A program made the translations under genes and the position numbers. The notes below the pieces were generated by a model. It was not told where the DNA came from. It searched no databases and saw nothing but the letters and a program-made list of their open reading frames with translations. Shown here one piece after another: positions 37,031 to 41,730 of a stretch of 64,000 nucleotides of DNA. This DNA comes from Candidatus Blautia stercorigallinarum (GTDB taxonomy: Bacteria; Bacillota; Clostridia; Lachnospirales; Lachnospiraceae), in assembly GCA_019112785.1 (NCBI GenBank), contig DXIQ01000058.1, positions 1 to 64,000 on the forward strand, in the 5' to 3' direction. Each line of letters opens with the position of its first letter. Position 1 is the first letter of the stretch.

Positions 37031-37062
37031 GGCGCTCAGAGCAGATGCTCTGGGCGCCTTTT
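37031..37062 (+). terminator. Leader hairpin/attenuator ahead of the ATP-grasp cluster
   Basis: GGCGCTCAGAGC pairs over 12 bp (one G-U) with GCTCTGGGCGCC around an AGAT loop, followed by TTTT. The only gene upstream is divergent, so it cannot end a nearby same-strand gene and probably acts in cis on the cluster. The T run is short. Confidence 0.65.
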
Positions 37063-37083
37063 CCATTTAAGGAGGGAGCAGGA

Positions 37084-38397
37084 ATGAGAGAACTGGTGGA
37101 ACATACAGAAGGGATCAACCGTCTTATGGCCAGATTCGGGGTCAAATTCGGGATCTATAAAAACGGCGAGTTTCATGAGCAGCTATTTCCCTTTGACGCT
37201 ATTCCCCGGGTGATCACCCGGGAGGAATTCCGGATACTGGAAAAGGGACTGATCCAGAGGGCGGACGCCCTGAACCTTTTTCTGAAGGATATATATGGAG
37301 AAAAAAAGATCATAAAGGATCAGGTAGTTCCGGAGGAGTTTGTATTTATTTCTTCCGGCTATCTTCCGGAATGTGAGGGGATCTGCCCGCCCAAGGGAAT
37401 CCACAGTCATATTTCGGGAATTGATCTGGTGCTTGGCAAAGATGGAGAGTGGTACATTCTGGAGGATAATCTCAGGATTCCTTCCGGCGCTTCCTACCCC
37501 ATGATCGCCAGGGAAATCTGCCGCCGGGTATCTCCAAAAACCTTCAGCAACAATCAGATCGTAGACAATCGAAACTATGCGGACCTGCTGAAGGAGACTC
37601 TCGACTGGGTAAATACAGGAGGAATACCGGTGATCATGACTCCGGGAAGATATAACGCCGCCTATTTTGAACATTCCTATCTGGCAGAGCGGACAGGGAG
37701 CGAACTTGCTGCCTGCTTGGAGCTTTTTGTAGAAAATGATTATCTTTATTACCGGGACTACAGGAATACCAAACAGAAAGTAGGGGTACTTTACAGAAGG
37801 ATATCGGACGAATATCTGGATCCGCTGACTTTTCTTCCTGAATCCCTTATAGGCATCCCAAATCTTATGGAAGTATACCGGAAAGGCAATGTGGCCATTG
37901 TAAATGCGCCGGGGAATGGAGTGGCAGATGATAAGGGAATCTATTATTTTGTACCTAAAATGATCCGTTATTACCTGGATCAGGAACCGATCCTGAAAAA
38001 TGCTCCCACTTTTCTTCCCTATTATCCGGAGGACCGGAAATATGTCCTGGATCATCTGGAAAAACTGGTGGTAAAAGATGTGGCGGAAGCCGGAGGATAC
38101 GGGGTGATCTTTGGAAATGAACTGAGCCGGGAAAAACTTTCTCAGATGAGGGAGATCATTGAAAAAGAACCCAGAAGATTCATTGCCCAGGAGGTTATTG
38201 ATTTTCAGGATATGGAAGTTTCCGAAGGAACCGGGACTGTGCTGCGAAAAGCAGACCTGCGGGCTTTTGTATTATCCGGAAAGGAGACAAAAGTGTGGGC
38301 CAGCGGACTGACCAGGTTTTCCAGAAACCCGGATTCCTTTGTAGTAAATTCATCACAGGGAGGAGGATTTAAAGACACATGGGTATTATCTCAATAG
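37084..38397 (+). CDS. Circularly permuted type 2 ATP-grasp protein (DUF404/DUF407)
   Basis: This protein has 437 residues. It matches the amidoligase-like circularly permuted ATP-grasp group: INRLMARFGVKFGIYKNGEF, then RVITREEFRILEKGLIQRA, ISGIDLVLGKDGEWYILEDN, LRIPSGASYPMIAREI, and a C-terminal VSEGTGTVLRKADLRAF. Family members are thought to join an amino or acid group to a peptide or metabolite using ATP. AAGGAGGGA (37070-37078) sets the start. It overlaps the alpha-E gene by 19 bp. A product cannot be named. Confidence 0.93.
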   Translation: MRELVEHTEGINRLMARFGVKFGIYKNGEFHEQLFPFDAIPRVITREEFRILEKGLIQRADALNLFLKDIYGEKKIIKDQVVPEEFVFISSGYLPECEGICPPKGIHSHISGIDLVLGKDGEWYILEDNLRIPSGASYPMIAREICRRVSPKTFSNNQIVDNRNYADLLKETLDWVNTGGIPVIMTPGRYNAAYFEHSYLAERTGSELAACLELFVENDYLYYRDYRNTKQKVGVLYRRISDEYLDPLTFLPESLIGIPNLMEVYRKGNVAIVNAPGNGVADDKGIYYFVPKMIRYYLDQEPILKNAPTFLPYYPEDRKYVLDHLEKLVVKDVAEAGGYGVIFGNELSREKLSQMREIIEKEPRRFIAQEVIDFQDMEVSEGTGTVLRKADLRAFVLSGKETKVWASGLTRFSRNPDSFVVNSSQGGGFKDTWVLSQ

Positions 38398-39053
38398 AAA
38401 AAGCAGACCATCTATATTGGCTGGGACGGTATACGGAAAGAGTGTATACCACACTGCGGGTATTCTTTCATATATACGACAATATGATCGAACAGCCGGA
38501 AGGCATTTATGCGAAGTACTGTAAAAGGCTGAATATCCCGGATATCTATACTTCTAACAGACAGTTTGCCCAGTCTTATCTTTTTGATGAAGATAATCCG
38601 GATTCTGTAGTATCCAATATGAAACGGGCCTATGACAATGCAGTGGTGCTAAGAGAAGAATTAAGTAGCAATGTGCTGTCCTATGTCCAGCTTGCCCTGG
38701 ATACTTTCCAGGCCTGCAAGAAGACTACAGCGCCCCTTCTGGAACTGCAGCAGGCCATTGATTATCTGCTGGCTTTCTGGGGCTGCGCCGATGATTATGT
38801 GGATCAGGAGGACTGCAGGAATATCCTGAAATGCGGAAAATATGTAGAAAGACTGGATCTTTTTATCCGTCTGGATTACCATAGAGAAGATCTGGAAAAA
38901 GAATTCAGAAAGCTGACCAACCGTCTGTTCAGAACGAATTTAAACTATAATGAAGAAAACCTGAAGCGGCTGGAACAGATCATTATGGATAAAGACCATC
39001 AGAAATCTTATGATCAGGAGGCACTGGGCTGTCTGGGAGGACTGATCTCCTGA
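38379..39053 (+). CDS. Alpha-E domain protein (DUF403)
   Basis: This 224-residue all-helical protein is the constant partner of circularly permuted ATP-grasp proteins. It opens MGIISIEKADHLYWLGRYTE, the typical alpha-E start, followed by RVYTTLRVFFHIYD and later CGKYVERLDLFIRLD. It has no known catalytic site and may be a carrier or docking subunit. Its start lies inside the ATP-grasp gene, and the transglutaminase-like gene follows 16 bp later. Confidence 0.9.
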   Translation: MGIISIEKADHLYWLGRYTERVYTTLRVFFHIYDNMIEQPEGIYAKYCKRLNIPDIYTSNRQFAQSYLFDEDNPDSVVSNMKRAYDNAVVLREELSSNVLSYVQLALDTFQACKKTTAPLLELQQAIDYLLAFWGCADDYVDQEDCRNILKCGKYVERLDLFIRLDYHREDLEKEFRKLTNRLFRTNLNYNEENLKRLEQIIMDKDHQKSYDQEALGCLGGLIS

Positions 39054-39069: not shown

Positions 39070-39900
39070 ATGAAAAAATTAAGATTTATATACAGAATGG
39101 AAATTCGATTTTCGTCTCCGGTGAACAGCCATTATTTTGCCCTGCGCTGTATCCCCGGAGACTCTTCGCGGCAGAGGATCATCCTGACAGAACAGAATAT
39201 TTATCCGGCAGATTATCTGAGCAGGACAAAAGACGGCTTTGGCAACATCCGGCTTAACGGGTGCTGCCAGGGACCTCATGAGACTTTCGGATATACCATA
39301 GCCGGGACTGCTCAGACAAAGGGAATGGAAGTGGTAAAAGAGCCTCTTCATCCCATGTACCGGTATCCTTCTTTCTATACCTGCCCGGATCCGGGAATAG
39401 CTGCTTTTGCCTGTAAAGCAGAACAGCTGTGCAGGGAACAGGGAAAGGAAGAGAACCTGGAAAAGGCCGTCTGTGTTATGGGAATGCTCTATGAGGGCTT
39501 TTCTTATGTGCCAGGGTCTACAGATATCAGCACTACGGCGGGAGAGGCCTTAAAGCAGGGAAAAGGAGTATGTCAGGACTATGCCCATATCATGACTGCA
39601 GTGCTCCGGTATATGGGAATCCCTGCCAGATATGTGACCGGATTGATGATAGGGGAAGGGTATACCCATGCCTGGGTGGAAGTTTATACCAGGGATGGCT
39701 GGTATGGCCTGGATCCTACCAATAATCTGCACATTGATGAATATTATATTAAGCTTGCCCATGGGAGAGACTACGGAGACTGCGTGATTGACCGGGGATG
39801 CTTCCGTGGAAACGCCGGGCAGGAACAGAAAATTTATGTAAAGGTGGAGGAAATAAAAAATGACGGAAACAGTGGTGGCAATGAAACTGCCGGTGGATGA
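39070..39900 (+). CDS. Transglutaminase-like cysteine protease
   Basis: This protein has 276 residues. The N-terminal ~110 residues form the β-rich bacterial transglutaminase-like region (FIYRMEIRFSSPVNSHYFAL). The catalytic triad is Cys in GKGVCQDYAHIM, His in GYTHAWVEVYTRD and Asp in WYGLDPTNN. Such proteins usually hydrolyse or form isopeptide/amide bonds. It is the third member of the ATP-grasp/alpha-E/transglutaminase set. No signal peptide is seen, so it acts in the cytosol. Its end overlaps the next gene by 41 bp. Confidence 0.92.
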   Translation: MKKLRFIYRMEIRFSSPVNSHYFALRCIPGDSSRQRIILTEQNIYPADYLSRTKDGFGNIRLNGCCQGPHETFGYTIAGTAQTKGMEVVKEPLHPMYRYPSFYTCPDPGIAAFACKAEQLCREQGKEENLEKAVCVMGMLYEGFSYVPGSTDISTTAGEALKQGKGVCQDYAHIMTAVLRYMGIPARYVTGLMIGEGYTHAWVEVYTRDGWYGLDPTNNLHIDEYYIKLAHGRDYGDCVIDRGCFRGNAGQEQKIYVKVEEIKNDGNSGGNETAGG

Positions 39901-40798
39901 AAGCCTGCGGATCCAGAAAAACCGGATCATGCCCGCCCATCCTACGGGGGAAGAAAAGAGGATCGCGGTAGTAACCGGTACCCATGGAGACGAGCTGGAG
40001 GGCCAGTTTGTCTGCTACGAGCTTCTCAGGCGGCTGAAGGCGGAGCCGGAACGGCTGAGAGGGATCGTAGATGTATATCCGGCTCTGAATCCTCTGGGAA
40101 TTGATTCCATCACCAGAGGGATCCCCATGTTTGACCTGGATATGAACCGGATCTTTCCGGGAAATGAAGAGGGGCCTATGATGGAGTCCCTGGTCTATGG
40201 ACTGATGGAGGACCTGAAAGGAGCAGATCTCTGTGTGGATATCCATGCCAGTAATATTTTCCTTATGGAACTTCCTCAGGTGCGGATCAACGAGCTTACT
40301 GCCGAGAAACTGGTCCCGTTGGCAAAGGATATTAATGTGGACTTTGTCTGGGTACATGCCAACGCTACCGTGCTGGAATCTACTCTGGCCTACAGCTTAA
40401 ACCAGGCAGGCACCCCTACTCTGGTTGTAGAGATGGGAGTGGGGATGCGTATTACAAAGACCTATGGATATCAGCTTGTGGAAGGCCTGTTAAATGTTAT
40501 GAAGACCCTGGGAATCTGGGATGGGGAAGTGGGAGAGATCCGGAAGCCTATCGTGTCTGCAGATCAGGAAATCGGCTATCTGAATGCAGACTGCGCAGGA
40601 ATCTATGTTCCCCAGGTGCAGATCGGAGAACAGGTGAAAGAAGGAGATCTTCTGGGAGAAATCCTCAATCCCCTTACCGGAGATGTGGAGCAGGCGGTGA
40701 AAGCACCTGTTTCCGGTATGGTGTTTACAAGAAGAGAGTATCCGGTAGTTTACAGCGGTTCCCTGCTGGGAAGGATACTGGGAGGTGGAAGAGCATGA
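39860..40798 (+). CDS. Succinylglutamate desuccinylase/aspartoacylase-family deacylase
   Basis: This 312-residue protein has an M14-like zinc fold. Zn ligands are H42 and E45 in VVTGTHGDELEGQ and the His in CVDIHASN. LVVEMGVGMRI may hold the catalytic Glu. The C-terminal ~90 residues form a β-barrel, with an APVSGMVFTRREYPV end like other AstE/AspA-type members. GGAGG at 39846-39850 sets the start. It would cleave an N-acyl or amide bond of a small substrate, possibly the product of the cluster. It overlaps the next paralogue by 4 bp. Confidence 0.92.
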   Translation: MTETVVAMKLPVDESLRIQKNRIMPAHPTGEEKRIAVVTGTHGDELEGQFVCYELLRRLKAEPERLRGIVDVYPALNPLGIDSITRGIPMFDLDMNRIFPGNEEGPMMESLVYGLMEDLKGADLCVDIHASNIFLMELPQVRINELTAEKLVPLAKDINVDFVWVHANATVLESTLAYSLNQAGTPTLVVEMGVGMRITKTYGYQLVEGLLNVMKTLGIWDGEVGEIRKPIVSADQEIGYLNADCAGIYVPQVQIGEQVKEGDLLGEILNPLTGDVEQAVKAPVSGMVFTRREYPVVYSGSLLGRILGGGRA

Positions 40799-41730
40799 GA
40801 AAAACAGAGATTTATACCCTTGGTTCTCCATACCGGGAAGATCTGAAGATAACCGGCTATGCATTTGGACAGGAACAGAAATCTGCCTGTATAGTGGGAA
40901 GCATAAGAGGAAATGAAGTCCAGCAGCTTTATGTCTGCTCCCAGATTGTGAGAAAGCTGGAAGAGCTGGAGGCAGCGGGAAAAATTGCCAAGGATAAGGG
41001 AATTCTGGTGATACCGTCCATAAATCATCATGCTATGAATATCGGAAAACGGTTCTGGCCTGTGGATAATACAGATATAAACCGGATGTTTCCGGGGTAT
41101 GATCTGGGAGAAACTACCCAGAGGATCGCAGCAGGAGTATTTGAAAAGGTGAAGGATTATGATTACGGTATCCAGTTCGCAAGTTTCTACATGCCCGGAG
41201 ACTTTATTCCTCATGTCCGTATGATGGATACCGGAAAGCAGAACACCAGCCTGGCCGGGCTTTTCGGCCTTCCCTATGTAGTCATAAGAAAACCCAGGCC
41301 CATTGATACTACAACTCTGAATTATAACTGGCAGATATGGGATACCAATGCCTTTTCTGTCTATACTGCAGAGACAGATTTCATAGATGAAGAATCCGCC
41401 CAGCAGGCGGTTTCTGCTGTCCTTCGTTTCCTCACCAGAATGGGGATCCTGAAATACAACTGCCATAACGGCTATATTGCTACCGTGATCAATGAAGAAG
41501 AGCTTATGTCTGTCAGGACCAATACAGGAGGAATCTACAGAAGGCTCTGCCGTCCCGGGGATGAGGTATATACCGGCCAGCCTCTGGCAGAGATCCTGGA
41601 TCCTTATGAGGGATATGTGACCTCTACCATCTTGTCCCCTACAGACGGGATCATCTTTTTCACCCATAAGAAACCTTTGGCTACAGAGAACGAAGTGATC
41701 TGTAAGATCATACGGCGGCTGCATAACTGA
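40795..41730 (+). CDS. Second M14 deacylase-like protein, zinc ligands apparently lost
   Basis: This 311-residue protein is a paralogue of the preceding gene along its whole length. At the site of H42/E45 it has SIRGNEVQQLY, with Arg (R38) in place of His; Glu (E41) remains. At the third zinc ligand it has GIQFASFYMPG in place of DIHAS, so that His is missing as well. The C-terminal barrel (SPTDGIIFFTHKKP) is kept. It may bind rather than cleave the substrate, or form a heterodimer with the active paralogue. It starts in ATGA overlap with its partner and ends the unit. Confidence 0.85.
   Translation: MRKTEIYTLGSPYREDLKITGYAFGQEQKSACIVGSIRGNEVQQLYVCSQIVRKLEELEAAGKIAKDKGILVIPSINHHAMNIGKRFWPVDNTDINRMFPGYDLGETTQRIAAGVFEKVKDYDYGIQFASFYMPGDFIPHVRMMDTGKQNTSLAGLFGLPYVVIRKPRPIDTTTLNYNWQIWDTNAFSVYTAETDFIDEESAQQAVSAVLRFLTRMGILKYNCHNGYIATVINEEELMSVRTNTGGIYRRLCRPGDEVYTGQPLAEILDPYEGYVTSTILSPTDGIIFFTHKKPLATENEVICKIIRRLHN

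Follow-up and report, generated by a model that had tools for sequence, protein, structure and literature searches.

A conserved AstE/AspA-type pseudoenzyme encoded beside an active-looking paralogue in Candidatus Blautia stercorigallinarum

Introduction

Why should a bacterium keep a metallohydrolase without its metal site directly downstream of an active-looking copy? This question is raised by two adjacent genes, here called A and B, in a 64,000-nucleotide stretch of Candidatus Blautia stercorigallinarum DNA (assembly GCA_019112785.1, contig DXIQ01000058.1, positions 1 to 64,000 of the forward strand; hereafter, the window). A sequence-only reading had described B as a pseudoenzyme of the M14 type and suggested that it forms a heterodimer with its neighbour or binds substrate.

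Pairs of this kind are known elsewhere. The metformin hydrolase MetCaCb consists of paired ureohydrolases, adjacent active and metal-free paralogues that occur together across genomes, and the metal-free paralogue is required by the active one (PMC11271267). Their fold and metal are unrelated to those of A and B, and MetCaCb is biochemically proven, whereas the A-B pair is known from sequence. In trypanosomes, the dead paralogue prozyme activates the live S-adenosylmethionine decarboxylase (AdoMetDC) (PMC5201418). The same superfamily as A and B includes the M14 pseudocarboxypeptidases AEBP1, CPXM2, CPD-III and Ecm14, which have lost the catalytic glutamate, replaced by tyrosine in three of them (PMC11266112). 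Unlike B, these proteins are eukaryotic, belong to the carboxypeptidase branch, are mostly extracellular and have no operon-paired active paralogue. Aspartoacylase-type proteins do not figure in a review of pseudoenzymes among the metallopeptidases (PMC11266112), and no pseudoenzyme or pseudo-subunit of the AstE/AspA branch paired with an active copy was found in the literature searched, which covers the field in part.

Gene Pair and Operon

Gene A (39860..40798, forward strand) encodes an active-looking AstE/AspA-type hydrolase of 312 aa, identified from its open reading frame, a structural model and a match to the Pfam profile PF24827 (81.3 bits against a cut-off of 25). Gene B (40795..41730, forward strand) starts with ATG, encodes 311 aa and matches the same profile with 45.2 bits. 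Both proteins thus exceed the curated threshold for PF24827 (AstE/AspA, M14-like fold). The TGA stop codon of A overlaps the ATG of B by 4 bp (ATGA). The two proteins align from end to end with 23% identity (E 3e-24), and the profile-profile comparison gives a probability of 99.9%; the description of B as an M14 paralogue of its neighbour is therefore confirmed. An antisense ORF of 324 aa (40750-41724, reverse strand) covers B and is probably a by-product of codon usage.

Three operon mates precede the pair on the forward strand: a circularly permuted ATP-grasp ligase (37045..38397; PF14403, 450.8 bits; PF04174, 411.5 bits), a short Alpha-E protein (38379..39053; PF04168, 79.4 bits over the first 165 of 294 positions) and a transglutaminase-like protein (39070..39900; PF01841, 83.5 bits; PF08379, 37.2 bits). 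The transglutaminase ORF and gene A share 41 bp at the start of A (39860-39900). The Alpha-E proteins of clostridial operons are about 224 aa long and match the Pfam model over its first half only; those of other Bacillota, including the distant family f60 described below, comprise 304-324 aa.

The first three genes and their order are identical to those of the Anbu operon. The difference lies in the hydrolase slot, which is occupied here by the M14 pair as the fourth and fifth genes and not by the Anbu Ntn-hydrolase. One proposal for the Anbu operon is that its products make a peptide or tag and also cleave it (PMC6376114; PMC5666114); Anbu itself showed no peptidase activity (PMC6376114). 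In three loci of other Bacillota (L157, L158 and L159), the ATP-grasp/Alpha-E/transglutaminase module is present, but no M14 pair was recognised within the 14-15 kb covered; in L158, the Alpha-E and transglutaminase genes are fused.

Active-Site Residues

The site of A is complete, with HGDE (His42 and Glu45), DIHAS (His129) and VVEMG (catalytic Glu191), and its pattern is that of the related solved structures aligned with A. The corresponding positions in B are Arg38, Glu41, Ala129 and Tyr190/Thr191. The motif RGNE (residues 38-41; 40906..40917) places Arg38 at the first zinc histidine and keeps Glu41, the second ligand, as it does in 110 of 110 homologues. The segment QFASFY (residues 127-132; 41173..41190) stands in place of DIHASN in A, with Ala129 for the third zinc histidine. 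Opposite the catalytic Glu191 of A lie Tyr190-Thr191 (41362..41367), and which of the two is its exact counterpart depends on the alignment. In the homologue alignment, the substrate-carboxylate binding loop DINRMFPG (residues 94-101; 41074..41097), including Asn96 and Arg97, is preserved; all four segments are on the forward strand. Hence, the zinc triad HxxE...H reads R-x-x-E...A in B: two of the three zinc ligands and the catalytic glutamate are missing, and the middle ligand and the DINR loop remain. Both histidine substitutions had been recognised from the sequence (His42, replaced by Arg, is in A numbering), although the loss of the glutamate had been missed.

Gene A itself varies among lineages. 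The full zinc triad and the glutamate are found in 97 of 107 A sequences, this one among them; in the other ten, His42 is replaced by Tyr or Gln. Nine of these belong to an Anaerostipes-type clade (L030, L074, L076, L088, L089, L100, L103, L104 and L105), where the first zinc histidine is Tyr, Asn96-Arg97 are often replaced too, and Glu45, His129 and Glu191 stay. The tenth (L009) has Gln and likewise keeps the other three residues. Judged by these sequences, catalysis by A in the Anaerostipes-type clade is uncertain, and A may not be catalytic there. The idea of a pseudoenzyme beside an active copy accordingly holds, by sequence, for most lineages.

Fold Models and Related Structures

AlphaFold2 models of B and A were built from alignments of 67 and 68 homologues, respectively. 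Both feature the catalytic domain and the C-terminal barrel, with a pLDDT of 91.8 and pTM of 0.90 for B (strands continue to residue 307) and 89.2 and 0.88 for A. The top PDB match of the B model is EutE/DoeB (6TWM, TM 0.78), in line with the earlier proposal that fold and barrel are retained. In this fold, the side chain of Arg38 would probably take the place of the metal, next to Glu41.

For both models, the solved structures that match best are EutE/DoeB, related desuccinylase-family entries and CphZ, all of the AstE/AspA family. The N-acetyl-diaminobutyrate deacetylase EutE/DoeB (6TWL/6TWM, 3NA6) has the closest solved fold for A and B (TM about 0.8) and shares the HxxE...H...E site with A. 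However, A scores 61 bits, far under the DoeB equivalog cut-off of 402.7; DoeB also differs in lying with the genes of ectoine catabolism, and this analysis met no inactive paralogue paired with it. The cyanophycin beta-Asp-Arg dipeptide hydrolase CphZ (8EIN/8EIP) has the family and the barrel domain in common with the pair, but the identity is about 17% and CphZ is encoded by one gene. Neither a cyanophycin synthetase nor a cyanophycinase was recognised in the examined stretch.

Conservation and Selection

The loss of the site residues in B is general. His, His and Glu are all absent in 110 of 110 scorable homologues, which extends to other clusters the histidine loss noticed in one. Arg38 and Glu41 are invariant (110/110), as is Asn96 (110/110), and Arg97 is found in 109 of 110. 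Position 129 is Ala, Thr, Pro or Ser and never His in 111 sequences, and Glu never occurs at the Tyr190/Thr191 place in 110. Many polar invariants are new and confined to B (the Gln43-Gln44 pair, Asn82, Asp171 and Gln180), and the TLNYNWQ segment is nearly invariant together with the pocket residues Arg38, Glu41, Asn96 and Arg97. The sole near-invariant histidine is His140 (103/111), replaced by Gln in eight homologues.

Against close relatives, B has a dN/dS of 0.02-0.05 and A one of 0.04-0.09, and the mean identity over 5512 locus pairs is 0.560 for B and 0.563 for A. Judged by this low dN/dS and a mean identity equal to that of A, B is not decaying but is maintained under strong purifying selection. 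A slower evolution of B than of A was considered and dropped, since the mean identities are equal and the lower dN/dS of B appears only among near relatives. Sequencing error or decay in a single strain is rejected by the same losses in all 110 homologues and by the dN/dS values. Many of the loci were taken from metagenome bins, and binning may account for some of the host names (Prevotella, Sutterella, Duodenibacillus). Arg97 of A is lost in 10 of 10 loci where B has Lys86; this correlated pocket change (A Arg97 with B Arg86) is suggestive, but it comprises only three independent pairs and is not significant.

Co-occurrence of A and B

Strong matches to A and B were counted in 150 Lachnospiraceae genomes. 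A is present in 33 and B in 35 of them, and B accompanies A in 33 of 33, the co-occurrence expected of a MetCaCb-like active/inactive pair. The two genomes with B only are G124, where an operon remnant (L190) contains a shortened ATP-grasp gene running into a shortened B and joined to the B tail, and G061, which is 99% complete and has an intact B and no A. Other remnants were observed: in genome G025 (L191), an N-terminal ATP-grasp piece is left with a remnant B tail in a dead operon, and in L056, an ATP-grasp tail lies upstream of an intact A-B pair.

A full-length ATP-grasp gene occurs in only 16 of the 33 genomes with A; therefore, the A-B pair outlasts the other operon genes. Where a second copy is present, it is again an A-B pair (G029, G031, G070 and G074), and in G616, the genes are unlinked and both retained. 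The commonest A/B junction is an overlap of exactly 4 bp (43 of 106). Co-occurrence, paired copies, retention and the junction pattern speak for two proteins that act together rather than independently. On the other side, linkage in an operon can by itself keep independent proteins side by side, and the lone intact B of G061 counts against obligate pairing.

In L154 (2172-3704, reverse strand), the reading frame of B extends into a SAM-dependent methyltransferase domain, giving 511 aa altogether; either the fusion is genuine or a stop codon has been lost.

Origin of the Pair

Searches of the phylum Bacillota and of one class within it for distant relatives revealed the family f60, whose operons have the same order: ATP-grasp, Alpha-E, transglutaminase, A and B. 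In the tree, computed with the site columns removed, A groups with f60 A (support 100/99) and B with f60 B (97/88). This topology points to one duplication that would have given rise to A and B before the clostridial and f60 lines split, the support for the B grouping being good and not maximal.

The f60 B proteins (five sequences) keep all three His-Glu-His zinc ligands and have Met for Glu191, so the pair appears to be older than the zinc loss, and the decay stepwise. The simplest order suggested by these sequences is loss of the glutamate followed by loss of the two zinc histidines; alternatively, the glutamate may have been lost independently in the clostridial and f60 lines. Among outgroup members that have no partner, the site is complete in all but L124, which has Gln for Glu. 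The counterpart of His140 (IPHLR) is already present in the f60 B proteins with their full normal triad.

Discussion

The pseudoenzyme status of B is well supported by the conserved loss of two zinc ligands and the glutamate, the strong purifying selection and the f60 intermediate. Regarding its function, we consider it reasonably probable that A and B make up a two-subunit zinc amide hydrolase of the AstE/AspA type, in which B is the fixed and obligate partner that keeps the pocket but does not catalyse, by analogy with MetCaCb. The heterodimer or substrate-binding role suggested from the sequence fits the strict accompaniment of A by B and the retained Arg/Asn/Arg pocket. The two genes would stem from a duplication in an early Bacillota ancestor. 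B would first have lost the catalytic glutamate, a state still seen in f60, and in the clostridial line two of its zinc ligands, with Arg38 becoming fixed beside Glu41 as fold, DxNR loop and barrel were retained. A and B would then assemble as a heteromer, in which A would provide the zinc and the catalytic glutamate, and B would stabilise or activate A or shape substrate access.

Among the other readings, that of B as a free-standing ligand-binding protein, a sensor or substrate carrier using the old pocket with Arg38 for zinc and forming no stable complex with A, appears unlikely. The nearly invariant pocket and TLNYNWQ segment would suit it, as would the lone B of G061 and the separated genes of G616; however, a free sensor does not require that A never occurs without B, and B carries no fused partner or DNA-binding domain, the L154 methyltransferase read-through apart. 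The B-only polar invariants, and a dN/dS equal to or under that of A, could also be read as marks of a new, zinc-independent enzyme using the invariant Arg38, Glu41, Asp171 and Tyr190. This is quite improbable: conserved acidic, Cys and His positions are few, there is no conserved new nucleophile or cofactor motif, and an intermediate that lost the catalytic glutamate first suggests loss of function rather than its exchange.

A normal enzyme with a rebuilt site, binding zinc via other residues such as the invariant Glu41 and the near-invariant His140, is very improbable. It is the reading under which the pseudoenzyme interpretation would fall, but the matching histidine already stands beside the full triad in f60 B, so His140 is not a substitute that arose for a lost ligand; eight homologues have Gln in its place, B has no other conserved histidine and the catalytic glutamate is gone too. 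We reject this candidate since His140 predates the loss and stands alone. The motif loss itself is what a decaying duplicate kept by operon linkage alone would display, although the low dN/dS, identical losses in 110 homologues and retention after the loss of other operon genes make such decay barely credible.

For the two-subunit hydrolase, the substrate would carry an acidic acyl part in amide or isopeptide linkage, like those of CphZ, DoeB and aspartoacylase. CphZ splits beta-Asp-Arg, and isoaspartyl dipeptidase activity is reported for its family (PMC10206079), which makes an isopeptide or acidic amide a sensible guess. The neighbouring module of ATP-grasp, Alpha-E and transglutaminase may make or handle this substrate. 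A bolder version, possible but doubtful, is that the heteromer is a two-subunit isopeptide/amide hydrolase that serves gut Firmicutes in place of the Anbu Ntn-hydrolase, within a tagging or small-peptide system built on ATP-grasp and transglutaminase; Arg38 of B would then be a substrate-anchoring charge in the position of zinc.

The A-B pair would offer a small, expressible hydrolase for finding the substrate of the ATP-grasp/Alpha-E/transglutaminase system. The series from a full site, through a site with zinc ligands kept and glutamate lost, to one with zinc lost may be a readable record of an enzyme becoming a subunit.
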